DNA of 64,000 nt from Candidatus Caccoplasma merdavium (lineage in GTDB: Bacteria > Bacteroidota > Bacteroidia > Bacteroidales > UBA11471). The notes beneath the pieces were generated by a model. The model was not told the origin of the DNA, ran no database searches, and was given only the letters and a program-made list of their open reading frames with translations. The stretch covers positions 1-64,000 of the forward strand of contig DVLI01000022.1 of the NCBI GenBank assembly GCA_018715595.1, given 5' to 3'. Of this stretch, positions 8,449 through 64,000 are shown in pieces; within the stretch, counting starts at the first letter, position 1; the number at the start of each line of letters is the position of its first letter. The position numbers were made by a program, and so were the translations under genes.

Positions 8449-11400
8449 GGTTTTTTGATGTGGAACAATGCCGTGTAAAAGAGCGGGAGGAGGATAAGGG
8501 TGATGATGGTTCCCACCGTGAGACCGCCCATGATGGTGATGGCCATCGAGCCGTACATGGGGTCACCGATGAGGGGTATCATGCCCACGATGGTGGTGAG
8601 CGAGGCCATGAGTACGGGGCGAACGCGGGACACAGTGGCTTCTACTACGGCATGATAGGGGTGCTGGTGTTCCTCGGTGATGAGCCGGTTGATTTCATCG
8701 ACGAGCACGATGGCATTTTTTACCATCATACCCATGAGACCCATCATGCCGATGATGGCCATGAACGTGAAGGGCTGGCGCAGGAAATAGAGCGAGGGAA
8801 CGATTCCACACAGGACAAACGGCAGGCAGAGAAGAATGAGCCCTACTTTTTTCCAACTGTTGAAGAGCAGCAATAAGATGCCCAAGATAAGGAATATGGT
8901 GATAGGAACGTATTTCAACAAATTCAATATCGCATCGTGTTGCAATTCACCTTCTCCCACCCAACGCATTTCATATCCGTCGGGGAGGGAAATAGCCTCT
9001 ATCTCGTCCTTGATGCTTGACACGGCTTTGGCCGGGGTTGCGTCGAAGAGTGCATAGTTGGGGTCGCACTGAGCTTCGATGACCCGTTTGCCGTTGAGGC
9101 GCATCACACAACTCTCTTCCCAATCGAGACGCATGTCGGGGGCGACGTTGCTGAGCGGGGTGCTGCGCACCATGTTGTCGTGCAATTCGTTGAGTCCGGT
9201 TCCCCCGGTGAGTGCATTCATCACCTCATTTTCGTCAATGCGCACATTCATCATGCTCCATACGGGAATGTCGCCCAAGGACGAAATGCGGCTCCCGTCG
9301 TCATTGCGTACCAGCAGGCGAACGGGCAGTATGCGGTCTTGTTCGTAGATGACACCCACCGGCAGACCGTCGGTGGCGGCCAACAGGGCATTTCCGATGT
9401 CGCTCCGGCTGATGCCCGCGCGCAAGGCGTCTTGTTGCACATACTCGGCCACCAACGTCTTGCCTTTGGCTTTCCAGTTGTTCTCGACCGAGTAGGGGTC
9501 GATATAGGGGCTGTGCCGCATGATTTCCTCGGCCTGGCGGCTCAGGTCGCGCAGCACGGCCGGGTCGGGACCGGCAAATTCCACCTCTACCGTGTGGGAG
9601 GTCGAAATCGAGAAGTTGTATTTGCGTGCCCGGATATAGGCATCGGGATATAGGCTGCGCAGTTCGTCGAGAATGACAGGTATCGATTCGACGACGACGT
9701 CGTAGTCTTCGCAATCGACAATCAGTTCGCCGTAACAGTCTCCGCCCGAGGTCATGGGTCTTACGAGACAGTAGTGCGCCGGGGCGCTGCCCATGCTGGC
9801 CGATACCCGCACGATACCCTCTTTGGTTTTGAGTGTGCGGCTTATTTCGAGAAGGTCTTCTTTTACGTCATCGGGGCTGCTTTGCGCCGGCAAGAAGTAT
9901 TCGATGACAAACTGGTCGTAGTCGAAATCGGGGAAAAACAGGTTTTTCACCTTTGTCATGCCGTAGGCCGAAAGCAGCAATACGCACACCGCTGTTGCGA
10001 TGGTTGTTTTTTTGTACTCGATGAGGGTGGCGATGCTATGACGCACAAAACGGTGGACGGGAGAGTTCAGGCAACCCTCTTTGCTTGGGGCTTTCTCCCG
10101 AGGGGAAAGCCACGATTTGGCACACATGGGTACTTGTATGAGGGCCAATACCCAACTGGCCAAGAGACTCACGCAAAGTACGAGGAACAGGTCTTTGGCA
10201 TATTCGCCGGCCGAGTCGGGTGAGAGGTAGATGCAGATAAACGTGGCGGCGGCGATAATCGTGGCTCCCAATAGCGGTAGGGCGGTGTTCTGCCCGATGC
10301 GATAGAGGTAGGTCTTAGGGCCGAAACCGCGTTTCTTGTCGATGAGAATGCCGTCCATGATGACGATGGCGTTGTCGACGAGCATACCCATGGCTACGAT
10401 GAAGGCTCCCAGCGAAATGCGTTGCAGCGTGGTGCCGCATGCCAGTAGTATGGGGAAGGAGACGGCGATGGTGAGGACGAGCCCCACGCCGATGATGAGG
10501 CCGCTGCGGAATCCCATGGTGAAGACAAGTACCAAGATGACAATGAGCACCGACTCCAACAGATTGAGCATGAATGAGCCGATGGCGGCATCTACCAGGT
10601 CGGGCTGGAAAAATATCTTTTCGGTCTCCATGCCCACAGGTACCTGTTGCATCACTTCGGCCAGTCGGGCATCGACGGCTTTGCCTACATCGGGGACGAT
10701 GGCATCGTTTTCGAGGGCGATGCAGATGGCGATGGCCGGTCTCCCGTCGACAAAGAATCCGTTGCGTTGGGGCTCGGCATAGGTGCGTTCGACCGTTGCC
10801 AGGTCGCCCAGACGCAACTGTTTCCCATCGGCCGTCGTGATGAGGAGGTCGCGTATGTCGTCTTCGTTCGAGATGGCACCGTCGATGCGTAGCGGAATGC
10901 GGTCGCCTTCCTGTTGATAGCTGCCGGCATCGATGGGTTTGCCGGCATTTTGCAAGGCCATCATGACTTGTGTGGGGATAAGACCGTTGCGGGCGAGGGT
11001 CTCTTTGGAAAAAGTCAAGTTGATGGTTTCTTCGCGGTTCCCGGCGATGATGACCCGTTTTACCCCGTTTACACCCAGGAGTTCTCGTCTGATGAATTTG
11101 GCGTATTTGTACATCTCGGGATATTCATATCCGTCGGCAGTCAGGGCGTAGAAGATGCCATACACGTCCATCATGTCGTCGATGACGACCGGGTCGTAGC
11201 AACCGGCCGGGAGCATTGCCTTGGCATCGTTCACCTTGCGTCGCAGCAGGTCGAAGTGTTGTTCGAGTTCATCGAGCAGTACGGTCATCTTGAATTCGAC
11301 GGTAATTATGGCTGCGCCGTTTTGGCATTCGCTCTTTATCTTATGCACATTGGGCAGGGCGCGCAATTCGTCTTCCATGACCTGGGCCGCGTTCAACTCT

Positions 11401-25570: not shown

Positions 25571-26656
25571 TTATTCGATGTTTTGCAAGGTGACGTTAAG
25601 GCCCGTACGCAGTTGCAGCGTGCCCGAGGTGATAATGGTATCGCCTATGTTGAGGCCCCGGAGAACTTGCACTTTGGCTTCGGTACGCAATCCTTTTTCG
25701 ATTTCAACCGGTTGGGCTTTTCCCGATTTGTAAAGGAACACTTTGTCGATACCCATTTCGGGAACGATGGCATCGGAAGGTATGGCAATGGCCTGTTTTA
25801 CCTCTTGTGTTTTCAGCTTGATGTGGACGAAACGTCCCGGGTAGAGCATGCCGTTGCTGTTGGGGTAGGTGGCACGCATGGTAAAGGTGTGGGTTTCGGA
25901 GTCGAGGCGTGAGTCGGAGGCATATACATGCGCCTTGAAGGGTTGCATGAATCCGTCGACGGTAAATTCAAAACTGGTGCCGTTCTTGATGAGTCCGGCA
26001 TATTTCTCGGGTATCGAGAATTCGATTTTCAGCGGGCTGATTTTGGTGAGGGTGGCGATGGGGGTGGACGGGGTGGCATAAGCTCCTTCGCTCACTTGAC
26101 GCAGACCGATGATGCCGTCGAACGGCGCTTTCAGCTCGGTCAGTGCGATGTTGGCCTTTACGATGTCGATTTCGGCTTGCAGGGTGGCCAGGTCGGTTTG
26201 CACCTGTTCATAGGCTTCTTTACTCACGGCCTCTCTTTCGAGAAGGGCGTTTTGCCGGTACACCCGGTCTTCGGCCAGTTGCAGTTGCACTTCGAGTTTG
26301 CGCAACTGGGCTTGCAGCGGTGCGTCATTCACCTTGGCCAACAAGTCGCCTTTGTTCACAAACGAACCTTCTTTGAAATTGATGGAGGTGATTTTGCCTG
26401 ATGTCTCGAAAGAGAGGTTTACCTCTTCGTCGGGCAGCAGGTCGCCGGTGACATTCCTCTCCTCGCTCAGGGTCTCGGGCTTGATGACGTATGCCGTGAC
26501 GTTGAGGCTTTTTCGGGAGGGTTTCGATATGGGAGTGTCGCTCTCCTTTTCCTGGCTGCCTAACGGATAAAACTTGTAAACTCCAAATCCTGCGAGGCCG
26601 GCTATGATGAGTGTGATGAGGCCTGTCCGTAATCTTTTATTCATGGTTTTTGTCAA
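25571..26656 (-). CDS. RND efflux periplasmic adaptor
   Basis: 361 residues. One N-terminal membrane anchor (GLITLIIAGLAGFGVYKFYP), no lipobox. Barrel-sandwich halves VNLSFETSGKITSINFKEGS and ELKAPFDGIIGLRQVSEGAY flank a short helical hairpin, followed by a beta-barrel domain. Couples the HAE1 permease to its TolC. First gene of the operon, transcribed away from the AraC regulator. Confidence 0.9.
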   Translation of the reverse strand: MTKTMNKRLRTGLITLIIAGLAGFGVYKFYPLGSQEKESDTPISKPSRKSLNVTAYVIKPETLSEERNVTGDLLPDEEVNLSFETSGKITSINFKEGSFVNKGDLLAKVNDAPLQAQLRKLEVQLQLAEDRVYRQNALLEREAVSKEAYEQVQTDLATLQAEIDIVKANIALTELKAPFDGIIGLRQVSEGAYATPSTPIATLTKISPLKIEFSIPEKYAGLIKNGTSFEFTVDGFMQPFKAHVYASDSRLDSETHTFTMRATYPNSNGMLYPGRFVHIKLKTQEVKQAIAIPSDAIVPEMGIDKVFLYKSGKAQPVEIEKGLRTEAKVQVLRGLNIGDTIITSGTLQLRTGLNVTLQNIE

Positions 26657-28005: not shown

Positions 28006-29070
28006 TCATCGGAATTTCATGTCGCACCCCCAGTGACGGGCCAGCCGTCGAGCCTCCTTGGCGGTGAGGTGAATGACCGCTCCGTGTTTGGGTATCGAGA
28101 AGTTGGTCGCTTTCATTACCCCCTTGTTGAAATGACCCAAGTCGGTGAAGGTCTTGAAGTCACTTGTTTCCCTGAATCCGAAGTTGTGGGGTTTGAGGCT
28201 GTATATGTCATACATCAGCACCCAGCGGTCTTCTCCGATGCGTTTCCAGACATTGGGCGCTTCACAACCTCTCGGCTCGGAGTCGTACCAACCCTCTTCG
28301 TAGACATACCCGCTGTGTATCGAGTCGGAGACCGCATGACGGATTCCTGCGCACCCTTCCTGGGCCACATAATAGAGATGGTATTTGTCTCCGACTTTTG
28401 TGATGTCACCGTCGATGTAGGAAAATTCCTTGGGGTAGTTGAAGAGCCGTTTCGGCTCGGTAATCAGGCGGGTGAAAGCATCGTCGGTGTAGGCGTAGTA
28501 GAGTTCACAGCGCTCGTTGCGGTGACGCATGGTGAAGTATATCATCAGCTTGCCCTCTTCGGGGTCGTAGATGGTTTGGGGAGCCCAGGCGCAACCTATG
28601 TCTTCATAGCCGGGAAATGCGGTGTCGAGCCTGAAACAGGAGTGTGTCCAATGTATGAGGTCGGTCGAACGCATCAATACCATCGAACGGTTGTTGCCCC
28701 AGCCGTAGGTCTTGCCGTCGCGTTCCCATTGGGTGGTGCGGTATCCGGCCTCTTGTGCATAGATGTGGAGGTCGGTCATGGCCAGGTAGAAGGCTCCGTC
28801 GGGTCCGCGCATGATGTGCGGGTCGCGTATGCCGTGTTGCTCGGCGATGGTATCGCCCGCAACGACGGGCTGCCCGTTGTTGACATCGGTAAACGAGTAG
28901 CCGTCGGCGCTCAATGCCATGTGGAGGCTGTGCGTGTCGTCCTTGAAATAGACCAGCAGGTAGGCGGCCATCTCTTTCTCAGTGGGAATCTTGACTCTTT
29001 TCTTGGCTTCGGCTGTGGGTACAAGCAGGCAACATGCCAACAGAAAAGTAAGGAAGGAGCGTGTTTTCAT
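28006..29070 (-). CDS. GH43-like glycosidase, secreted
   Basis: 354 residues with a signal peptide (MKTRSFLTFLLACCLLVPTAEA). Five-bladed beta-propeller features of glycoside hydrolase family 43 and relatives: HGIRDPHIMRGPDGAFYLAM with the catalytic-base Asp context, WAPQTIYDPEEGKLMIYF with the Asp of blade 3, and YIDGDITKVGDKYHLYYVAQ. Likely an arabinosidase or related pectin side-chain enzyme; exact activity not decidable. Last gene of an operon with an SGNH esterase. Confidence 0.78.
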   Translation of the reverse strand: MKTRSFLTFLLACCLLVPTAEAKKRVKIPTEKEMAAYLLVYFKDDTHSLHMALSADGYSFTDVNNGQPVVAGDTIAEQHGIRDPHIMRGPDGAFYLAMTDLHIYAQEAGYRTTQWERDGKTYGWGNNRSMVLMRSTDLIHWTHSCFRLDTAFPGYEDIGCAWAPQTIYDPEEGKLMIYFTMRHRNERCELYYAYTDDAFTRLITEPKRLFNYPKEFSYIDGDITKVGDKYHLYYVAQEGCAGIRHAVSDSIHSGYVYEEGWYDSEPRGCEAPNVWKRIGEDRWVLMYDIYSLKPHNFGFRETSDFKTFTDLGHFNKGVMKATNFSIPKHGAVIHLTAKEARRLARHWGCDMKFR

Positions 29071-40722: not shown

Positions 40723-43700
40723 TTATTCTTTGATGAGTTTGCGCGAGAAGGTTCCCTCCGAGGTGGTGATGGTCAGTGTGTAGTAGCCTTGCGGCAACTC
40801 GTTGAGACCACTGATGTTGAGCGGTGTTGCACCTTCGATGAGGAGGCTGCGGTTGTAGACAACCGAACCGCTGGCTCCATAGAGGGTAAATTCTACCACT
40901 TCGTTCGATACGCCGTTGAGGGTGACGGTCACTTCGTCGTTGAAGACGGTCGGGAAGACGTTGATACGTTCGGTAACACTCATGACGGTCGTTTCGTCGA
41001 TGCCGGTAGGACGTTGCTCTTCATAGAGTCTCTTCACTTTGGGTGCGCTCAGGGCTCCGGTGTAGATGACCAGTTCGTCGATGGCGCCTTGGAACGGCGT
41101 GTTGAAGTTGACGTTGCAGTTGCCGATGACCATGTCTTCGGTTTCGAAGATGTCGCCCGTGGCATCATCTTTGGTTCCGACAAGCGCACCGTCGATATAC
41201 ATGGTGATGACTTTGTTGGCCGAGTCGCGCACGCAGGTAAGGAAGTGCCAGTTGTTGTCGAAGTAGTCCGAAGCCGGTACGTCGAGGTTGGTCTTGGTGG
41301 TGTTATCGTCGATACCGAAGGTGAGGTTGTTGTTCTTGTATTGGATACCAATCCATTTACCGGTAGCCGTGGCAACAGCGCCGGCCGTGTGGCTTCCTTT
41401 GTGGAAGAGGTACCAGTCGATGCCGCTGGCTCCCGCCGACTTGAACCACAAGGCGATGGAGAAGGAGCCTTTGCTCATCGAGAGGGCATCGTAGTGAGGC
41501 TGTACCATGTAACCGCTTTGGCCTTCGAACGAGATGGCATTGCCCGATACGCCGCTTACCCATGCAGGGTTGAGGTTGCTGGCTGAGGCTTCGCCCGAGA
41601 TTTCGTTTTTGGCTGTCGTGCCGGTGGTCTCGTCGAAATGGAAATTGGCTACTTCGGTGAGGACTTCGGCTGCGCGTACCGTGATGGTTCCCGGCAGTGA
41701 GATGTCGGTGGTACCGCCTTGTGTGGTGATGGCGTATTTGAATTCTCCAATCTCTTCGGGTATGCCGCTGATGGTTATGGTCGATTTCTCTTTGTCGATG
41801 CTGGCTGTAACGCCCGAGGGCAGGTTGCCTTCGACAGCTACGTTCTCGGCATTGAACCACATGTATTGAATTTCGGCAATCGGTTCTTCAATTTCGACAT
41901 TCTGTACCAGATTTCCTTCTCCGATTTTAGAGAGGCGGGCAGCTGTCGGGTCGGTACCGTCGCCGATGTAATAGCCCAGGTGGGGAGGTTGGTTGTAGGC
42001 CACGTTCTGCCAGGCAACACCCATGCGGTAAACGTGATCCTGCATCGGGGTCACCATGCGGTAGTCCGAGGCGTATGTCGTGGTGAATACGACCAGTGAC
42101 GAGCTGGTCGAGCTATTCCACAGAATTACCTCTTCGCGCCAGTCGCCGAAGAGGTCGGCTTGCAGGCAAGGGGTCTTTTTGGTGCTGTTGCACGACGATG
42201 CGCCGGCGTAGTTATAAAGCGTGAAGATGCGGTTGGCTTTTCCCGTGGCGGCGTCCCATTTGTCGATGCGGTCGCCGTCGAGAAGTTCGTCTTGCAAGTC
42301 GCCGTCCCAGTAAATGCGGAAGTTGGCCGAGGGACGGTTTTTGGTATAAAGTACGTTACCGTGGCAATCGTAGATGTTGCCGTTGGCCGTCGACCAAAAT
42401 TCAAAACCGCGGCTGGTCGGGTCGATGTCGGCGGCGATGCCACGGCCCACGTCGCTGCCGGTATATTCGCCGTAGATGATTTTACCCGTTCCGGCTTCGT
42501 GAATGTCAAAGCCGTATTGTGCCGATTTGTCTTCGTGAGGGGTAAACAGCTCGAGCCCGTCGAGGTCGGGGTCGAGGTCGGAGAGGTGTATGGCGTCACC
42601 GTGACCCATGCCGGTGCGGTACATCAATGTTCCGTCGTGGTCGATGGCACAAGCACCGTAGACGATTTCGTCGTACCCGTCGTCATCGACATCACCCACC
42701 GAGAGGTTGTGGTTGCCCTGTCCGTAGGCACCTTTTCCGTTGGTCGCCGAGTCGTGTATCCAGCGTTGGGTGAGGTTGGTGCCGTCGAAGTCATAAGCTA
42801 CGAGTACGGCGCGGGTGTAATATCCGCGGCACATGACGAGGCTCGGGTGAATGCCGTCGAGGTAAGCGATGCAGGCCAGGAAACGGTCTACCCGGTTGCC
42901 GTAACTGTCGCCCCACGAGCTTACGCTTCCGCGGGGAGGGTTGTAAGAGACGGTAGCCATTTCGGCTCCCGTTTCACCGTTGAACACGGTGAGGTATTCC
43001 GGGCCTGAAAGGATATATCCCGACGAGTTGCGATAGTCTTTGCCGGGGTCGTCGTTGCCCATGAGCACATGTTTGCCTGTTCCGTCGATGGTGCCGGGGG
43101 CTGTCTTGCAGGCTACCTCGGCCTTGCCGTCACCGTCGAGGTCATAGACCATGAATTGGGTATAGTGGGCTCCGGCGCGGATATTTTGACCCAAATCGAT
43201 GCGCCACAGTTTGGTCCCGTCGAGTTTATAGCAATCGAGGATTACATTACCTGTGTAACCGGCTATGGAGTTGTCTTGTGAGTTCGAGGGGTCCCACTTC
43301 ACGATGATTTCATATTCGCCGTCGCCGTCGACATCACCGGCGCTGCAATCGTTGGGAGAGTAGGTGTAGTTTTCACCGTTGGGGAAACTTACGGTTTCTT
43401 TGTTGCGGGTACAGGTATAAGGTGGCGTTACTCCGGCAGCAGGACGGTCGAGGGGTATCTCCTTGTAGATGGTGGGCCAAATCTCTTCGACCGTGTTGCT
43501 CTCGGCAACTTGTCCGTTGACCAGTGTCTCGACAACGTATTTCGAAGAGGTGGTGCCCTCGGTATCGGTGAAGTTGGTCACCGTGGTGAGAGGAGTGGGG
43601 GTAAGGAGCGTCCCGTCACGATAGACGTTGAATGCGGTGGTTTTGTCATCGGTGTCGAGGAAACGCCAGCTGAGGAAGATGCCGGCCTTTTTCTGGCCTT

Positions 43701-45035: not shown

Positions 45036-46721
<1,686 letters not shown>

Positions 46722-46802: not shown

Positions 46803-47027
46803 TTATTTGATGTATCCGTGTTTTTGCAATAAGGCATCGGCGCGGGTTTCGTATTCTTGTTTTGTCATCACGATGACGGCGGCCTCCTTCGAGGTTATGG
46901 GGCCGTAAGGGGTGTGTGCGTTGTTGCGTGGGAAGCAGTCGATACCGGCATCGAGCAGTATCGATTCGAGCAGTTGGCATTCCCACAAGTCGCCGCGATA
47001 CACGTCGATGATTTTTCCTCCTTCCAT
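46803..47027 (-). CDS. DUF2007 small signal-transducing-like protein
   Basis: 74 residues from ATG 47027 (MEGGKIIDVYRGDLWECQLL). Matches the DUF2007 type: ESILLDAGIDCFPRNN is the PII-like core. Four bases after the stop of the upstream membrane protein. Cytoplasmic, function unknown. The longer open frame upstream is not protein-like. Confidence 0.65.
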   Translation of the reverse strand: MEGGKIIDVYRGDLWECQLLESILLDAGIDCFPRNNAHTPYGPITSKEAAVIVMTKQEYETRADALLQKHGYIK

Positions 47028-47031
47028 GAGG

Positions 47032-47361
47032 TTACAACTCTTCGAGCAGTTTATCGATGTCTTCCTGGTCGAAGAGTACAAACACATGCCCCAGCAAGCC
47101 GATGCTGGCCAACTGTTTCTCCCCTTCGTACTCGATGTATCCGGCCGAAGCGAAGAAGAAATTTTTGCCCGATACCACCTCGTCGGCCACGGCATCGAGC
47201 ACATAGCCGCCCAGCATCGAGATGAGCAGGTTGTCGCTTTGGTTGAGCGACTCTTTGAGTATCTCTTTCATCGCCTCGCGGTGGTCTTCGGTCGAGGGAC
47301 AACTGAGAATCAGCGTCAATGCCAATACGGCGACAACGCCCAGTGCAATCCATTTTTTCAT
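47032..47361 (-). CDS. DUF4359-like small exported/anchored protein
   Basis: 109 residues. N-terminal membrane segment or signal (MKKWIALGVVAVLALTLILS) followed by CPSTEDHREAMKEILKESLN, the DUF4359-type start, and a C-terminal domain (GYIEYEGEKQLASIGLLGHV). Function unknown. Forms a two-gene operon with the DUF2007 gene. Confidence 0.6.
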   Translation of the reverse strand: MKKWIALGVVAVLALTLILSCPSTEDHREAMKEILKESLNQSDNLLISMLGGYVLDAVADEVVSGKNFFFASAGYIEYEGEKQLASIGLLGHVFVLFDQEDIDKLLEEL

Positions 47362-56599: not shown

Positions 56600-56686
56600 G
56601 GAAGGATGGGTGAGTGGCTGAAACCACCAGTTTGCTAAACTGACGTACCCGAATGGGTACCGGGGGTTCGAATCCCCCTCCTTCCG
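56600..56686 (+). tRNA. tRNA-Ser (anticodon GCU)
   Basis: Class II tRNA of 87 bases. Acceptor stem GGAAGGA/TCCTTCC, anticodon loop TTGCTAA (anticodon GCT), a long variable arm (GTACCC with GGGTAC), T stem GGGGG/CCCCC with loop TTCGAAT. No encoded CCA. Reads AGC/AGU. Followed by a terminator ten bases on. Confidence 0.95.
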
Positions 56687-56696
56687 CTCTAATCGC

Positions 56697-57175: not shown

Positions 57176-57338
57176 TTCCTTTTTATTTTAGATTTTCAAC
57201 GGTTTGACACAATCGTTTGAAGAATAAACATTTAACGGAGTATTCGATAAACAGTGGTAACGATTTGGAAATCAAGCGAAATTCTGTGATTTGCCGTGTA
57301 TAACTATCAAATAACTCTTTACACTACAAAATTATCTA

Positions 57339-57776
57339 TTATTGGTGGGAAATACAATCTTTAACTGTTAATTCTTCTACTAAATTTTGCAGAGTATCTT
57401 CTTGCTCTTTTGAATTTAATTGACATTGCCATATAACAAACACTTTATATCCCATTTGTTCTAATTGCATTTGCTGTTTTTTATCTCGTTCAACATTTGA
57501 CGATATTTTATTTCTCCAATAATCAACATTTGAACTTGGAAGAGTAGCAGCTTTACAATTCTCATGTCCATGCCAGAAACATCCATTAACAAAAATAACG
57601 GATTTATATTTAGGTAACAGTATATCCGGTTTCCCTGGTAATCGTTTATCGTTTACGCGAAATCTAAAACCATGAGCAAATAAATATTTCCTAACTAAAA
57701 TTTCTGGCCTTGTGTTTTTACCAGAGATTTTAGACATTATAATGGATCGTTTTTCTTTTGAGAATATATCCGACAT
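57339..57776 (-). CDS. vsr: Very short patch repair endonuclease Vsr
   Basis: 145 residues. Family motifs: MSKISGKNTRPEILVRKYLF, LPGKPDILLPKYKSVIFVNG with the catalytic Asp, CFWHGHENCK (zinc-binding Cys/His), and NVDYWRNKISSNVERDKKQQ. Nicks next to T:G mismatches made when 5-methylcytosine deaminates, guarding sites modified by the two methyltransferases upstream. AT-rich. Two bases after the GHKL gene. Confidence 0.93.
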   Translation of the reverse strand: MSDIFSKEKRSIIMSKISGKNTRPEILVRKYLFAHGFRFRVNDKRLPGKPDILLPKYKSVIFVNGCFWHGHENCKAATLPSSNVDYWRNKISSNVERDKKQQMQLEQMGYKVFVIWQCQLNSKEQEDTLQNLVEELTVKDCISHQ

Positions 57777-57778
57777 GA

Positions 57779-59419
57779 TTATTCTAATTTTTCTGCATCA
57801 TCCAGTCTTCTGAATAAATGAGATATTAGACTTAATATATCCAAACAGTCTTTTTCAGAGAATAAATTTGTAGTTTTTAATTCCTTTTTTTCTTCATGAG
57901 CCAATGGATTCCTAACACCTGCCATTAGCCCCATTGACATAAACTTTTGTCCGTCTTCTATATTTTCTTTAGTACTATCAGAAAAATCACTTCCATCTAT
58001 CCTCTTATACTTCGAGGTCACAGATAATTTTGCATTATTTTTACCAAAAACAGCCCCCATTAAAGTTTGTCCATCTGTTTTTAATCCAGAGACTTTTTGT
58101 ATCATTGTTTCATAGCGTTTAATCGCCTCTTCTACAGCCCTGTAAAAATCTGCATTTTTATAATCTTCATAGGATGCATCTTTAACAGTTGAATGCATAT
58201 GCCTCCAATGATAATTGGCATATTCAGGTATAAGCGCATGAAGCATACCGACAACTTCAGTTTGTTTATCATCAGCTAATTCCGAATTTTCTACAACATT
58301 ATTCACTATATTTTCTACTCCTGATTTAACATCAGAAGGTAGTTTTCCATACCAATCCTTTATGTCTATTTGCACCTTACTGGAAATTCGCTTTTGCCTT
58401 TCTATCTTTCGTTTATTTCTCCAGTCCCTTTCAATTGCAGATAACAATTGTTTGAGATTTACTTGTAATTCTGATGTTACTGGCAAATCCCAACTTAACG
58501 ATTGCCTATCGGTAGAGATAACATCTTCTTCTAATTCATCAATAAAATCAACATTGAGCCATCCTGTTAAATACGAATAACCATGACTAGATTCCCCAAC
58601 TCCGAAAAATTCAGGAGCATTTACCAAGCGCCCGTGAGCAAACAGCGTTATACCCCTAAGTCCTGGTTTCAAAGGCTTTTCTGTCGCTAAAATACGCCCA
58701 ATGACATTGTGACTTTCCAAATATTCGTTTTTCACGTCTTTATTAGGAATATCCCAACTAATCTGAGGCAGCAAATTTTGATATTTTAATTTATTGTCAA
58801 CCAATACTTCATCTTCTTCATTGTATGATATATATACTTTAAATGTATCATCAAAGAAATTGAATAATTTAGAAAGACTAATTGCTAATCCGTCTTTATC
58901 AAAATCGGATTTTCGCTTTAAATCATCCAATTCTATAATAGTTCCATTTTGTTTAGCATCACATTCCGATATTGAAAATTTAGGCTCATATTCTTGACTA
59001 TTAGTACTCATCAACTCTACCCAGCTTAAAGTAAATCTTACACACTGCCCATTTTGACAAGTAGTAATACGAATTGTATCTCCTATTCCAAAAAAAGCAA
59101 GTTTTCCCAAACCTTTCCTTCCTGTTACTTTCCGCATGCCGTTAGGACTTAAACCATTATCATCCGCTCTACGCTTACGTCCAATTCTCAAAAAATTATT
59201 GTTAATTTCATCGAAGGACATTCCAATCCCATCGTCAATAACAGCAATCCTTTTGTTTCCGTTATCATTATACAATTTAACATGGACTGTATGCGCTTCT
59301 GCATCATATGCATTTGCAATAAGCTCTGCAATTGCATTCGGTAAAACCGAATACATTTTAATTCCCAAATGCTCAATTGTATGCGGGTCAAAGCTCATTT
59401 TCAGTTTCGGAGATTCCAT
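57779..59419 (-). CDS. GHKL ATPase with Ymh-like C-terminal domain
   Basis: 546 residues. The N-terminal Bergerat ATPase fold has N box AIAELIANAYDAEAH, G1 box VIDDGIGMS and G2 box GRKGLGKLAFF. A middle S5-like part follows (ITLFAHGRLVNAPEFFGVGE). The C-terminal about 110 residues (FMSMGLMAGVRNPLAHEEKK, FSEKDCLDILSLISHLFRRL) resemble the TIGR02391/Ymh domain seen in phage- and restriction-linked proteins. Similar to MORC-type ATPases reported beside restriction-modification genes. Probably a DNA-remodelling partner of the restriction complex; role inferred. Confidence 0.82.
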   Translation of the reverse strand: MESPKLKMSFDPHTIEHLGIKMYSVLPNAIAELIANAYDAEAHTVHVKLYNDNGNKRIAVIDDGIGMSFDEINNNFLRIGRKRRADDNGLSPNGMRKVTGRKGLGKLAFFGIGDTIRITTCQNGQCVRFTLSWVELMSTNSQEYEPKFSISECDAKQNGTIIELDDLKRKSDFDKDGLAISLSKLFNFFDDTFKVYISYNEEDEVLVDNKLKYQNLLPQISWDIPNKDVKNEYLESHNVIGRILATEKPLKPGLRGITLFAHGRLVNAPEFFGVGESSHGYSYLTGWLNVDFIDELEEDVISTDRQSLSWDLPVTSELQVNLKQLLSAIERDWRNKRKIERQKRISSKVQIDIKDWYGKLPSDVKSGVENIVNNVVENSELADDKQTEVVGMLHALIPEYANYHWRHMHSTVKDASYEDYKNADFYRAVEEAIKRYETMIQKVSGLKTDGQTLMGAVFGKNNAKLSVTSKYKRIDGSDFSDSTKENIEDGQKFMSMGLMAGVRNPLAHEEKKELKTTNLFSEKDCLDILSLISHLFRRLDDAEKLE

Positions 59420-59422
59420 AGA

Positions 59423-60481
59423 TTATATATTTGTTGATATAATAGATATTCCTAATCTTCTAGCATATTCACAAGGTACAGCATTACCGATTAATTTAGC
59501 TGTAGCAGCAATACTGTTGGTTTTAAAAACATAATTCTTTGGAAAAGTTTGTAATGTGGCTCCTTCTCTTAATGATATAGCACGATCCTCTTCTGGATGT
59601 CCAAAACGACCATTTGAAATGCTGTAAAATTTTGTTGTTATTGTTGGAGCAGGTTTATCCCACCACATTCGACCAAATGTATCTTTGAAACTGTCATCTT
59701 TACCAATAAAGCATGGCAATTGCAATTCCATATCATTTGCCCAATCAAGTCGACTGCCTCCATCGTGTTTTGTTCTTGATATTCTTTTCAAATTTATATC
59801 ACTAAGACCAGCCGTGGTATGATTGAAATCTGACAAATCTTTATTTCCTGCAGGTATTTTGGGAAAACCGTTGGCAGTGCCCAAAAAATCTTTTAAAATT
59901 GAGGTTGTACTATCTTCATTAGGCATTTTCAGATTTAATCCCGATATGCGAGATGCAATTAAAGAAAATCGTTTTCTGCTTTGAGGTACTCCATATTTAC
60001 TCATATCAACAACTTTGTAAATGATATTTTCATATCCAAGACCTTTTAACTTATTCAGGAAATATGGTAATATGCTATTTTTATTTGTCATTATACCCGG
60101 TACATTCTCAACAAGAATAAATCCAGGTCTATAATATTCAACAAAACGGGCAAAATTCTTCAATAGGTCTTTGGATTTCATTGATTTCTCCTTATCGGTA
60201 TTGATTATGCTATAATACTGACATGGGCTACATCCTACCAAAATAAGATTGTCATCATAAGGTTTAATTGCATATTTCCTTTCAAAAAAGTTACTACGTA
60301 ATCTTTTTATATCAGCTTGTATAAATACACTTTGGGGATTATTATGTTCATATGTCTCTTTTGCATCTGCATCAAAATCAACGCCTGCAATTACATCTAT
60401 ACCTGCTTGACGCAATCCACAAGTCATACCACCTCCACCACAAAAGAAATCTATAGCTCGAAATTTATTGTTTGACTCCAT
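59423..60481 (-). CDS. DNA cytosine-5 methyltransferase (first copy)
   Basis: 352 residues. Motif I AIDFFCGGGGMTCGLRQAGI, motif IV with catalytic Cys in GCSPCQYYS, motif VI ENVPG, motif VIII QSRKRFSLIA, motifs IX-X GNAVPCEYARR. Modifies cytosine C5 in a recognition sequence not readable here. Downstream of the HaeII-type nuclease (16-base gap), with the GHKL gene starting 3 bases further on. Differs clearly from the other methyltransferase in this operon. Confidence 0.93.
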   Translation of the reverse strand: MESNNKFRAIDFFCGGGGMTCGLRQAGIDVIAGVDFDADAKETYEHNNPQSVFIQADIKRLRSNFFERKYAIKPYDDNLILVGCSPCQYYSIINTDKEKSMKSKDLLKNFARFVEYYRPGFILVENVPGIMTNKNSILPYFLNKLKGLGYENIIYKVVDMSKYGVPQSRKRFSLIASRISGLNLKMPNEDSTTSILKDFLGTANGFPKIPAGNKDLSDFNHTTAGLSDINLKRISRTKHDGGSRLDWANDMELQLPCFIGKDDSFKDTFGRMWWDKPAPTITTKFYSISNGRFGHPEEDRAISLREGATLQTFPKNYVFKTNSIAATAKLIGNAVPCEYARRLGISIISTNI

Positions 60482-60496
60482 ATACATTAAGCTCTT

Positions 60497-61564
60497 TTAA
60501 TTATTACTCCAAATATCATTTAGTAAAATGGAATCATAACTTCTGCTATGTTTGAAATCATTAAAGTCATCAAAATTGGTTGCAGGAAATTCCAATAAGA
60601 TTTCATCATATAAAATTGATAAAACTTTATCACCTATTTCTTCGGCAAAAACTCCTCTAAGTGCTTTCTCATACCATAATATTAAATCATTTTCTGTGAC
60701 GATACTTTGAATTTTAGATTTCCATCCAATTTGTGTTAAAAGCGAAACAATTAGTTTTTCTTCGGAATTTTTACATACAATAACGATTCTATCGGAAGAT
60801 ACTGATGATACTATATTTTCCGCAAGTTCTTCTGTCAATGATAAATGCTTTATCTGAATAGCCATACCGAAATTAGCCCACATATCTAATCCTCTATCGG
60901 CGGCATTGGTAACTCCAACACGATTTATTCGAGCTTTGACTGTTACCGTTGAACGTCCCTTTGATAATCCGATTACACGTTCGGCAAAATCGGAGAATTC
61001 TTCCAACAATTTTTGTTTTGTCTTATCGGCTTCAATAGTAACCGTAACTTTAAGACAGTCTATAAGAGCTGAAAATAAAGCATATACTACTATTTCATAT
61101 ATTTTATCTATACTTCTCCTCAATCCAGGTTCATTCCAAAAAAGATTGATAAATTCTATAACTTGAAAACTGCTTTTATCATGTGTATTACAATAATCCA
61201 AACCGCTTGACATTTGTGAAAAACGTTGTTCGAAGCGGTCGTAAATATATTTTTCTACGATTCCATTATTTTTCTTGTTTTCAGCTCCTAATACTTCAAG
61301 AACCGAAGGAGGTACTGCATTTTCATTAAAGACATCATCTTGATACCTTGCCGACGATGTGGATGTCCTTCCTAAAAAGCGCAAGCAGACTACATCACGC
61401 CATCTCTTTGATGCATTTCTATAAGTTTCCAAATCTGCTAAATCAATATCTCCATAAATTCTATCTCGATATAAAATTTCTGCGATTTGAATAGGCTTAT
61501 ATAAATGTACTCTCCCTTTAGATATGATTTTATCTAACGCTTGCTTCGCTTCCAATATGGTCAT
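60497..61564 (-). CDS. HaeII-family type II restriction endonuclease
   Basis: 355 residues from ATG 61564 (MTILEAKQALDKIISKGRVH). The sequence follows the HaeII family throughout: LYKPIQIAEILYRDRIYGDI, DLETYRNASKRWRDVVCLRF, GRTSTSSARYQDDVFNENAV. HaeII itself cuts RGCGC/Y, so a related site is likely but not proven. Overlaps the upstream methyltransferase by 35 bases, which couples nuclease expression to prior methyltransferase translation. Confidence 0.8.
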   Translation of the reverse strand: MTILEAKQALDKIISKGRVHLYKPIQIAEILYRDRIYGDIDLADLETYRNASKRWRDVVCLRFLGRTSTSSARYQDDVFNENAVPPSVLEVLGAENKKNNGIVEKYIYDRFEQRFSQMSSGLDYCNTHDKSSFQVIEFINLFWNEPGLRRSIDKIYEIVVYALFSALIDCLKVTVTIEADKTKQKLLEEFSDFAERVIGLSKGRSTVTVKARINRVGVTNAADRGLDMWANFGMAIQIKHLSLTEELAENIVSSVSSDRIVIVCKNSEEKLIVSLLTQIGWKSKIQSIVTENDLILWYEKALRGVFAEEIGDKVLSILYDEILLEFPATNFDDFNDFKHSRSYDSILLNDIWSNN

Positions 61565-62522
61565 AATCTCCAAATAAATTAAGTTCTTTATATTGTACCT
61601 TTTTTTTCTGTTCATTGAGTGCTTTAATCATCTCCCCTGCAATAGCATATATAACAGGAACAGACACAGAGTTTCCAGCAACTTTTCGTGCTTGTGAATA
61701 AGGAATGTTTATAACAAATGAGTCCGGAAATCCTTGAAGTCGCAACATCTCACGTGAGGTTAAACGTCTTTCTCCGTTTACAACTAAATAATTATAACTC
61801 CCCCCAGCTCTTAACGCACAAGAATATGGCAATGGAGATATATTTCCTCCAATATTCTCGTGCCAAATAGAAGGCCTAGGTGGAATGCTTTTAAGAGCAG
61901 AGAGGCGTTTTTGCCTCATTGCTTCCGACAGAAAATATGAAGTGGGGATATCCTCATCTTTTTCTAAAATTTCGGATAGTGGCTTAAAATATCCCAAAGG
62001 CTTCGGAAATTTAAACTGTATAGGACTTCTAAAGCCTACAATATAAATTCTTTCTCTCTTTTGAGGAACTCCAAAATCTAATGAATTAAAAACTTTATGA
62101 TATACTGTATACCCCAATTTGTTCAATCTGTCCAAAATTACAGCAAAAGTATTTCCGTTATCATGGGTTGTGAGCCGTTTTACATTTTCCAACAAAAATG
62201 CTTCAGGTTGTTTCGCTTTAAGTATTGCTTCAATATTAAAAAACAATGTTCCTCTTGTATCGGCAAATCCTAAACCTTTACCTGCTATACTAAAAGGCTG
62301 ACACGGAAATCCTGCTAACAAAATATCATGATCAGGGATATCTTCGGGATTTATATCATTAATGTCTCCAAACGGCTTCTCATGGAAATTCGCTTCATAC
62401 ATCTTTTGAGCATATTTATCCCATTCAGAAGAAAAGACATTTCTGCATCCATATGCTTCGAATCCTAAACGAATACCACCTATACCAGCAAATAAATCTA
62501 TAGTTCTATATATTTTGCGCAT
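61530..62522 (-). CDS. DNA cytosine-5 methyltransferase (second copy)
   Basis: 330 residues. Motif I TIDLFAGIGGIRLGFEAYGC, motif IV AGFPCQPFSIAGKGLGF with catalytic Cys, motif VI LLENVKRL, motif VIII PQKRERIYIVG, motifs IX-X GNSVSVPVIYAIAGEMIKAL. First enzyme gene after the regulator, so it is made before the nuclease. Which of the two methyltransferases protects the HaeII-type site cannot be told. Confidence 0.94.
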   Translation of the reverse strand: MRKIYRTIDLFAGIGGIRLGFEAYGCRNVFSSEWDKYAQKMYEANFHEKPFGDINDINPEDIPDHDILLAGFPCQPFSIAGKGLGFADTRGTLFFNIEAILKAKQPEAFLLENVKRLTTHDNGNTFAVILDRLNKLGYTVYHKVFNSLDFGVPQKRERIYIVGFRSPIQFKFPKPLGYFKPLSEILEKDEDIPTSYFLSEAMRQKRLSALKSIPPRPSIWHENIGGNISPLPYSCALRAGGSYNYLVVNGERRLTSREMLRLQGFPDSFVINIPYSQARKVAGNSVSVPVIYAIAGEMIKALNEQKKKVQYKELNLFGDYDHIGSEASVR

Positions 62523-62799
62523 AGTTCAAAATTTTTTCATTCACAACATTAAGTATATCTTGCACATTGCTTTCACAGCTAACCACTTCATAAACCTTAT
62601 CAGCAAGCCATAATTTAATAAGTTCTTTTTTATCAGCGTTTAACACATAAGCAATTACTTCAACCTGTTCCCTTCTTGCTTTCCTTTCGCCTCTTTCTAT
62701 TTTGCAATAAGTCGCAGTATCAATATCTAAGGCCGCTGCTAATTGTCGCTGTGGCATCTGATTCTGAATACGAAGCTCTTTAATACGCTCTGAAAACAT
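62506..62799 (-). CDS. XRE-family regulator, probable controller protein
   Basis: 97 residues from ATG 62799 (MFSERIKELRIQNQMPQRQL). HTH_3/XRE fold: QLAAALDIDTATYCKIERGE. Length and position (head of an R-M operon, overlapping the methyltransferase by 17 bases) match controller proteins that delay nuclease expression, though they are usually about 80 residues. Candidate operators lie just upstream. Confidence 0.82.
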   Translation of the reverse strand: MFSERIKELRIQNQMPQRQLAAALDIDTATYCKIERGERKARREQVEVIAYVLNADKKELIKLWLADKVYEVVSCESNVQDILNVVNEKILNYAQNI

Positions 62800-62823
62800 A
62801 AATTTACCCTTTTGTGTCTTGAC

Positions 62824-62853
62824 ATTATTTGGCAAAAGTACAAATAATATTTG
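62824..62853 (-). promoter_or_regulatory. Promoter and operator of the R-M operon
   Basis: -7 box TACTTTTG at 62833-62840 (minus), 34 bases before the regulator ATG. Symmetric half-sites surround it: TATTTG 62826-62831, CAAATA 62841-62846, TATTTG 62848-62853. The last two form a 13-base perfect palindrome. The arrangement suits binding by the dimeric XRE protein and auto-repression. Confidence 0.5.
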
Positions 62854-62926
62854 AGCCATAGGCTATATTCCCAGACCTTTTTTATGCTGACCTTTCCGAC
62901 TTTGGAGGAAAAGATTCCAGCAAGTA

Positions 62927-62964
62927 GTTTTGGGGCACCGAAAACATTTCGGGTGCCCCAAAAC
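62927..62964. terminator. Long hairpin upstream of the R-M operon
   Basis: 13-bp perfect stem (62927-62939 with 62952-62964) flanked by A/T runs on both sides, so it could end transcription from either direction. Confidence 0.55.
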
Positions 62965-63096
62965 ACAACTTGCCATGTTCGTTTGAACATAAGATTTGAG
63001 TATGGAAATCACGACTGAAAATAGAAGAATTGTCTTTGATAAGATGCTTGTTTGAGATTGGTCATATTATTTGTTTCTACCAACAAATAACGGTCG

Positions 63097-63147
63097 GTCG
63101 GTTGGTTGGTTTACCCAATTATTGGCTAGCATCATGGTCGGTTGGTC
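63097..63147. repeat. Repeated GGTCGGTTGGT motif
   Basis: GGTCGGTTGGT at 63097-63107 and again at 63136-63146, 39 bases apart, with extra GGTCGG and GGTTGG units in the first copy. Candidate arm-type binding sites of the adjacent integrase or an excision factor. Confidence 0.4.
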
Positions 63148-63187: not shown

Positions 63188-63364
63188 AATGAGCAGCACC
63201 TTGCCTATCGGTAAAGCACGACATTCCGACAAGGCGAAAACGGTGTTCCAAAAATATCGCCAAAAGAAAAAGATTATTTTCTGGAGGGAGTGCAGTTTCC
63301 CGTTTGCCACCATTTTATTGTGTCCTATAAAAACACCTCCCTCGGTTTTGAATGAAATTCTATA
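63188..63364 (+). CDS. Possible small protein, low confidence
   Basis: 58 codons from ATG 63188 (MSSTLPIGKARHSDKAKTVF), rich in Lys/Arg then hydrophobic (FPFATILLCPI). The opposite strand also has an open frame here (63149-63397). No family recognised; could be a remnant of element DNA. Confidence 0.2.
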
Positions 63365-63422
63365 AACAAATAATGATAGACATATATGCCTATTCAATAG
63401 TTTCGTCTTTGACGATTCTTTT

Positions 63423-63609
63423 CCGTCAGTCGTTTGTTTCCGTAGCCGTCATCGTCCATTGTACAGACGTGAAAGGGAAAAGGTTTTCGGGCTGAATACA
63501 CTCTGAAAGAGGAAGATTCTGCCCGAAACGGCACAGCCGCCTGACCTTTTCCCTTTCAATAAAGTCTGTACTAACTTAATGGACGAGCAAGGAAACAGGC
63601 GACTGACGG
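63423..63609. repeat. Large imperfect palindrome beside the integrase
   Basis: Nested arms pair across the whole stretch: 63423-63432 with 63600-63609 (10 bp), 63435-63441 with 63591-63597 (7 bp), 63453-63460 with 63578-63585 (8 bp), 63461-63468 with 63564-63571 (8 bp), 63471-63483 with 63545-63557 (13 bp), 63485-63492 with 63531-63538 (8 bp). The tip is a 38-base loop. It ends 10 bases from the integrase stop. As a single strand it would fold into one long hairpin with bulges. Confidence 0.8.
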
Positions 63610-63619
63610 TCTGTAATTT

Positions 63620-64000
63620 TCATATCGACCTACAAATGCTTTTCTCCATATCTCCCAATTTTTCAGAGAGTTGTTCCATGTCCTGACTTATCTTTTGGGC
63701 GGTTATCTTTGCGTAGATTTGGGTCGTCTTTATGTTGGTGTGCCCCAACAGTCTGCTTACGGTTTCAATCGGTACTCCGTTGGATAATAAAATGGTGGTC
63801 GCCGCTGAATGTCTTGCAACATGATAGGTCAGATGGGCTTTTATACCGCACAATTTGGCAATGGTTTTCAACTTCTTGTTGCAAGTCGTATTGCTCGGCA
63901 TAGGGAATACCTTGTTGTCCTTTGTCATGCCTTTGTACTTCTCTATGATACGTCTGGGTACATCTAACAGACGGATATTGGATTCCGTGTTGGTCTTCTT
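63620..64000 (-). CDS. Tyrosine recombinase (integrase), N-terminal part off the window
   Basis: C-terminal 126 residues; the frame is open to the right edge. Catalytic-domain motifs: TYHVARHSAATTILLSNGVP (H-x-x-R), LLGHTNIKTTQIYAKI (His, then the nucleophilic Tyr). The part visible upstream (SNIRLLDVPRRIIEKYKG) is the beta-sheet region of Bacteroidetes integrases. Distinct from the integrase at 4308-5503. Probably mobilises a right-hand element that may include the R-M island. Confidence 0.9.
   Translation of the reverse strand, partial: KKTNTESNIRLLDVPRRIIEKYKGMTKDNKVFPMPSNTTCNKKLKTIAKLCGIKAHLTYHVARHSAATTILLSNGVPIETVSRLLGHTNIKTTQIYAKITAQKISQDMEQLSEKLGDMEKSICRSI

Follow-up and report, generated by a model that had tools for sequence, protein, structure and literature searches.

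Integron attC sites and the attP site of phage CTX are imperfect single-strand hairpins near a tyrosine recombinase, and TAGCGT is the CS-6 motif of single-strand origins. Devices for starting on single-stranded DNA (ssDNA) are known from elements of E. coli and Bacillus. The Frpo1 and Frpo2 sites of F are repeated copies placed before leading genes (PMC9849209), and plasmid leading regions encode anti-defence genes, methylases and SSBs for reading from the transferred strand (PMC11541004). The sso1 site of ICEBs1 is located downstream of oriT (PMC4595007). Structured RNAs are found in comparable settings, including an sRNA that is essential for the mobilisation of SGI1 (PMC9299015) and the RteR RNA of CTnDOT (PMC7366714).

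The 64,000-nucleotide stretch of Candidatus Caccoplasma merdavium analysed here (the window) contains a 187-base imperfect palindrome at 63423-63609, separated by exactly 10 bases from the stop codon (63620-63622) of a tyrosine integrase gene. Both features were reported in a preliminary description of the locus and were confirmed. The palindrome is a real, strongly selected and strand-specific folded site of Bacteroidota mobile elements, and we infer that it is most likely a single-strand initiation site or an ssDNA promoter, not a recombination site.

The palindrome resembles Frpo1/Frpo2 and the ssi promoters (PMC9849209, PMC11541004) in being a long non-coding hairpin on one strand, in having a putative promoter box inside the fold (here in distant members), and in occurring as several copies of one orientation, each of which would precede genes that the folding strand serves to express, SSB and methylase genes included. 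However, those sites use -35/-10 boxes and another hairpin core, whereas the box here is the -7 box of the Bacteroidetes sigma-ABfr. The palindrome also lies far from oriT in CTnDOT-like elements, the window copy is without the box, and the promoter role here is a predicted one. Like sso1 of the integrative element ICEBs1 and the single-strand origins of rolling-circle plasmids (PMC4595007), the palindrome is a folded non-coding site, and the window copy shares with sso1 a location on the presumed leading side of oriT. It differs in its phylum and in the absence of TAGCGT, the sole sso motif sought, from the window copy, where it was sought; priming here is putative. The sgm-sRNA of SGI1 (PMC9299015) is also non-coding and beside the oriT of a mobilisable island, but it is a processed transcript with mapped promoters, whereas the palindrome has no + strand promoter before its fold. 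The likeness to attC and CTX attP lies in the imperfect one-strand hairpin near a tyrosine recombinase. Unlike these sites, the palindrome has no core boxes, is not at the element ends, and tracks the relaxase instead of the integrase.

Structure and conservation of the palindrome

Both the outer and the perfect inner arms were recovered on the + strand, and further nested arms were present. The outer arms (63423-63450 and 63582-63609) are 28 nt long and 79% complementary, and the inner arms (63470-63484 and 63544-63558) are 15 nt long and 100% complementary, which corrects the 13 bp given earlier for the best exact block. The region previously taken for a 38-base apical loop is the most conserved part of the palindrome family and is itself folded, with an apical stem followed by the side hairpin CGGC-ACA-GCCG (63529-63539). 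The apical stem-loop (63485-63528), whose stem pairs 63485-63497 with 63516-63528 at 92% complementarity, contains the invariant internal loop of the family, formed in the window copy by AATAC at 63495-63499 facing GGAAGATT at 63511-63518. In the 3' arm, the bulge CTAACTTAA (63571-63579) aligned with a -7-like box, TAnnTTTGC, of distant members and is degenerate here. The predicted DNA fold of 63403-63629 reached -66.6 kcal/mol (z -12.2) and the RNA fold -108 kcal/mol (z -10.9), with 0/200 shuffles as low in either case. The left flank of the palindrome also holds short direct repeats, GGTCGGT or GGTTGGT, at 63090-63147, which are possibly protein-binding sites.

A search for the arms across Bacteroidales genomes found the palindrome conserved far beyond the window. 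An exact 25-mer of the 5' arm was present in 23 further Bacteroidales stretches; these kept the whole palindrome, and in most of them the right flank diverged directly after it. BLAST matches to the palindrome occurred in 16 of 393 Bacteroidales genomes. A covariance model built from 34 sequences (R1) matched a second copy in the genome of the window (G000:C25:77-266) and distant members outside Bacteroidales. A further model (R2), built from the distant group together with representatives, matched about 150 sites in 70 of the 393 genomes. Copies were also found on annotated plasmids and CTnDOT-like elements, and in other orders. Nearly all distant members inspected had an AATAC-like strand facing GGAAGATT or GGAGATT in the internal loop, as well as a CTTGACCTT-like sequence at the core base. 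None of the Rfam 15 covariance models matched the palindrome, which is a member of a large and apparently undescribed hairpin family in the mobile DNA of Bacteroides-type gut bacteria.

Covariation was pronounced, with compensatory changes on both sides in 29 of the 56 consensus pairs. Of the cells at these pairs, 96.6% were paired, compared with 88.4% after shuffling (0/500 as high) and 35-52% when the partner was slid. We also counted mismatches in pairs that were at least 60% Watson-Crick. When the structure was predicted on the + strand, there were 67 G.T and 18 A.C cells; when it was predicted and read on the - strand, there were 30 A.C and 15 G.T cells. The sequences are related and hence not independent, and such counts should not be taken as probabilities. 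The bias thus persisted and is not only a prediction artefact. The fold of the + strand was also more stable than that of its complement in all 44 sequences. The fold is strongly selected and the + strand is the folding strand; support for the folding of one particular strand is strong.

Several copies had peculiar settings. The second copy in the window's own genome (L146, 77-266 of G000:C25) is distant in sequence and sits near a contig end, about 1 kb from a mutY-like gene. The B. ovatus plasmid NZ_CP041396 (L177) carries four copies in the same orientation (41282-41460, 42989-43168, 45746-45925 and 46917-47095). An exception to this usual rule was found in L221 (G353:C11), where two copies at 25584-25779 and 28172-28365 of the contig, 2.4 kb apart, have opposite orientations. 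In Phocaeicola faecicola (L115), a full and a partial copy (9044-9179, 10623-10813), 1.6 kb apart, flank a 313-aa ORF, perhaps the trace of a cargo exchange via recombination between copies; as this arrangement was seen at one locus only, an integron-like cassette array was rejected. In B. fluxus (L116), near 2395, foreign sequence replaces the left base of the palindrome beside an IS110-like gene, pointing to an insertion at the hairpin foot. The assemblies of five contigs (L227, L234, L091, L092 and L098) break off at the palindrome or within it, as though interrupted by the hairpin or its repeats. A 4.6-kb IMG/VR "virus" contig (L049) is a piece of the window's island type and looks mislabelled.

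Host elements and neighbouring genes

The element that carries the palindrome in the window is 7,931 bp long and bounded by a shared 8-bp core, TTATTTTA, found on the left at 57183-57190 and on the right at 65114-65121 of the contig, beyond the window. In independent elements with the same or a similar integrase, the right homology ended together after GTGTTTATTTTA and the left end TTATTTTAGATTTTCAACGG was common. The joined flanks, representing an empty attB site, matched no relative in the genus, so the element ends rest on this comparison. A tRNA-Ser gene (56600-56687) was rejected as the attachment site, with the left end lying outside it at 57183. The record OY726017.1 (L048/L129), deposited as a circular plasmid, was rejected as an excised form; it has chromosome-like genes, such as one for a BipA-like GTPase, and looks mislabelled. 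The integrase gene, on the - strand, covers 63620-64000 in the window (its 3' part) and extends to 64852 of the contig, encoding 410 aa in all. A HaeII-type restriction cargo, all on the - strand, occupies 57339-62859 and comprises an HTH controller, two C5 methylases, a HaeII-like endonuclease, an HATPase protein and Vsr. An ordinary-looking - strand -7 box at 63249 (CAAAAATA on the + strand) could drive the restriction genes from double-stranded DNA. We recognised no relaxase gene within the 7,931-bp element. Apart from the scanned cargo proteins and the genes annotated in plasmid records, protein names (relaxase c7, MobC c8 and Mob_Pre c31, for example) were assigned by visual recognition, by clustering and from homology with annotated plasmid genes.

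An oriT-like block on the + strand with an 18-nt inverted repeat (62893-62993) lies 430 bp to the left of the palindrome. It recurs in other elements, once with a MobC-like gene and a truncated gene for a relaxase as neighbours. The block resembles, in the same orientation, the gap upstream of mobA in NZ_OR675140, a tetQ-bearing CTnDOT-like element of B. fragilis (22 nt at 91% and 52 nt at 75%). This similarity suggests that CTnDOT-type relaxases may act in trans to mobilise the island. A resident CTnDOT-type helper was rejected, the genome of the window having only a 33% match to MobB.

Four types of context were seen across the family. Some copies are on small islands that lack a relaxase, as in the window; others are on islands that combine relaxase, MobC and xis-like HTH genes with a variable cargo (AbiE- or Fic-like genes, for example). 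The third type is an island whose relaxase is Mob_Pre-like, and the fourth consists of conjugative plasmids or CTnDOT-like elements. The nearest relaxase gene, within about 10 kb, was left of the palindrome and on the - strand in 30 of 37 loci, and right of it and on the + strand in five. The mob genes of B. ovatus NZ_CP041396 have the opposite polarity. The palindrome was common to elements with different relaxases and different integrases and to conjugative plasmids, as would be expected of a site read by host factors. Its linkage to the integrase was looser than the relaxase polarity. The expectation that the arms would recur beside homologous integrases held in part, with the palindrome within 1.5 kb in about 8 of 30 loci and no palindrome there in most of those examined. 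In the integrated form of CTnDOT-like elements, the copies lie tens of kb from the integrase gene, and in the circular record NZ_OR675140 the two are close again, across the record start. The distance to the mobA-parA gap in the CTnDOT-like element is about 28 kb. Left neighbours in the main subfamily are often HTH genes on the + strand.

TAnnTTTG is the known -7 box of the Bacteroides sigma-ABfr (PMC7366714). It was found inside the hairpin, nearly always in the 3' arm, at 48 of 67 sites, mostly distant members, a frequency that is partly built in because the box belongs to model R2, which selected many of these sites. The reverse box was present at 0/67, and the background was 0.12 per site and strand. 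On the + strand upstream of the hairpin, TAnnTTTG occurred at five of the 67 sites and was absent from the left flank in the window. DNA folding predicted the -7 box to be paired in most of the members examined; any accompanying -33 box is putative. In double-stranded DNA the -7 box faces right, with the left neighbour behind it, whereas folding of the + strand turns it around so that it faces the left neighbour by way of the 5' arm. All 10 annotated plasmid copies have a - strand gene starting 90-136 nt left of the hairpin, and the operons there include PcfK, PcfJ, SSB, DUF3873, DUF2958 or N6-methylase genes. Each of the four copies in NZ_CP041396 precedes a - strand gene. Left ORFs were on the - strand in 46 of 60 loci (two-sided binomial p 4e-5, with related loci counted apart), and right ORFs showed no bias (33 on the + strand, 24 on the -). 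The window copy is without TAnnTTTG, with TAACTTAA in its place, and about 560 nt separate it from the start of the closest - strand gene that was recognised. Box and neighbouring gene have both been lost from this copy.

Candidate function and rival explanations

We consider it probable that the palindrome is a single-strand initiation site (sso) of the T-strand or an Frpo-like ssDNA promoter. The 7.9-kb element, or a relative, would be nicked at oriT and enter the recipient as one strand. By analogy with other oriTs, from which the polarity of the T-strand was taken, the + strand would be the transferred one. It would fold into the long hairpin in the recipient, and host RNA polymerase or priming machinery could start there. 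The complementary strand would be begun at the hairpin, as at a single-strand origin, and in many relatives the gene next to the 5' arm would also be transcribed early, as from an Frpo-like ssDNA promoter. Given the degenerate -7 box and the absence of an adjacent - strand gene, the subfamily to which the window copy belongs is more likely to use the hairpin for priming than as a promoter. ssDNA and RNA folds are indistinguishable by sequence, and we infer that the palindrome acts as ssDNA rather than RNA.

A structured non-coding RNA along the + strand, needed for transfer or regulating it, is an unlikely alternative. The covariation with many G.T (G-U) pairs and the conserved unpaired motif look RNA-like, and both the SGI1 sgm-sRNA and RteR of CTnDOT were counted in its favor. 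However, the scarcity of TAnnTTTG before the hairpin (5/67 sites, none in the window's left flank) argues against a transcript across it, and one from the conserved box, which is inside the 3' arm, would leave out most of the fold. Because the right flank diverges directly behind the palindrome, there is no conserved terminator after it; no Rfam family matches, and the polarity of the relaxase and the left gene would be unexplained. The regulatory RNA named in the preliminary description is kept as a rival, one without a recognisable promoter. It is improbable that the palindrome is the leader of a - strand mRNA, as the - strand operons starting just left of the plasmid copies might imply, or a two-way terminator, as might be thought from the several families that place it between a + strand, xis-like HTH gene and a convergent - strand integrase gene. 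The - strand folds less well in 44/44 sequences and the mismatches favor the + strand. Moreover, 187 conserved bases with an invariant internal loop exceed the needs of a terminator, and the hairpin is constant while neighbours and their directions vary between families.

That the palindrome is oriT itself is very improbable, even though it is a long inverted repeat near mobilisation genes with a polarity fixed relative to the relaxase. A separate oriT-like block with similarity to CTnDOT is present, the palindrome lies about 28 kb from the mobA-parA gap in the CTnDOT-like element, and the family occurs with unrelated relaxases, whereas oriT sequences normally follow their relaxase. The "origin for strand transfer" proposed earlier comes close to the initiation site favored here, but not as oriT, in view of the separate block 430 bp away and the unrelated relaxases. 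A folded-strand recombination site of the neighbouring integrase, of the attC or CTX attP type, was also proposed, and we regard it as highly improbable. The 10-base distance to the integrase stop, the cargo changes beside the palindrome in related islands and the single locus where an ORF lies between a full and a partial copy would fit such a site. The element ends with their shared 8-bp core, in contrast, map well away, at 6.2 kb and 1.5 kb, the refuting outcome named in the preliminary description, and neither GTTRRRY nor RYYYAAC occurs in the window copy. Of 30 loci with homologous integrases, about 8 have the palindrome at a distance of up to 1.5 kb, most loci have one copy, and the orientation tracks the relaxase, not an att site. 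The mapped ends go most of the way to refuting the recombination reading, and the missing attC boxes and the relaxase-linked orientation likewise give it no support.

Implications for Bacteroides mobile elements

Within the gut community, mobile elements of Bacteroides spread tetQ as well as defence genes, restriction systems among them. To our knowledge, how these elements become double-stranded and active in a new host is uncharacterised, and our literature search, which combined Bacteroides with ssDNA promoters or with single-strand origins, yielded no account of it. We tentatively suggest, as a possibility that we hold at somewhat less than even, that the palindromes form a Bacteroidota-wide class of ssDNA start sites. 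Such sites would have their own sigma-ABfr promoter geometry and an AATAC / GGAAGATT internal loop, invariant in the family, that is read by a novel factor. Conjugative plasmids, CTnDOT-like elements and small mobilisable islands would use them on entry, both for conversion to double-stranded DNA and for the expression of establishment genes. If this is true, ssDNA promoters exist on a promoter grammar other than that of sigma-70. The two covariance models would then locate such sites, and the adjoining genes would be candidates for early establishment or anti-defence proteins.
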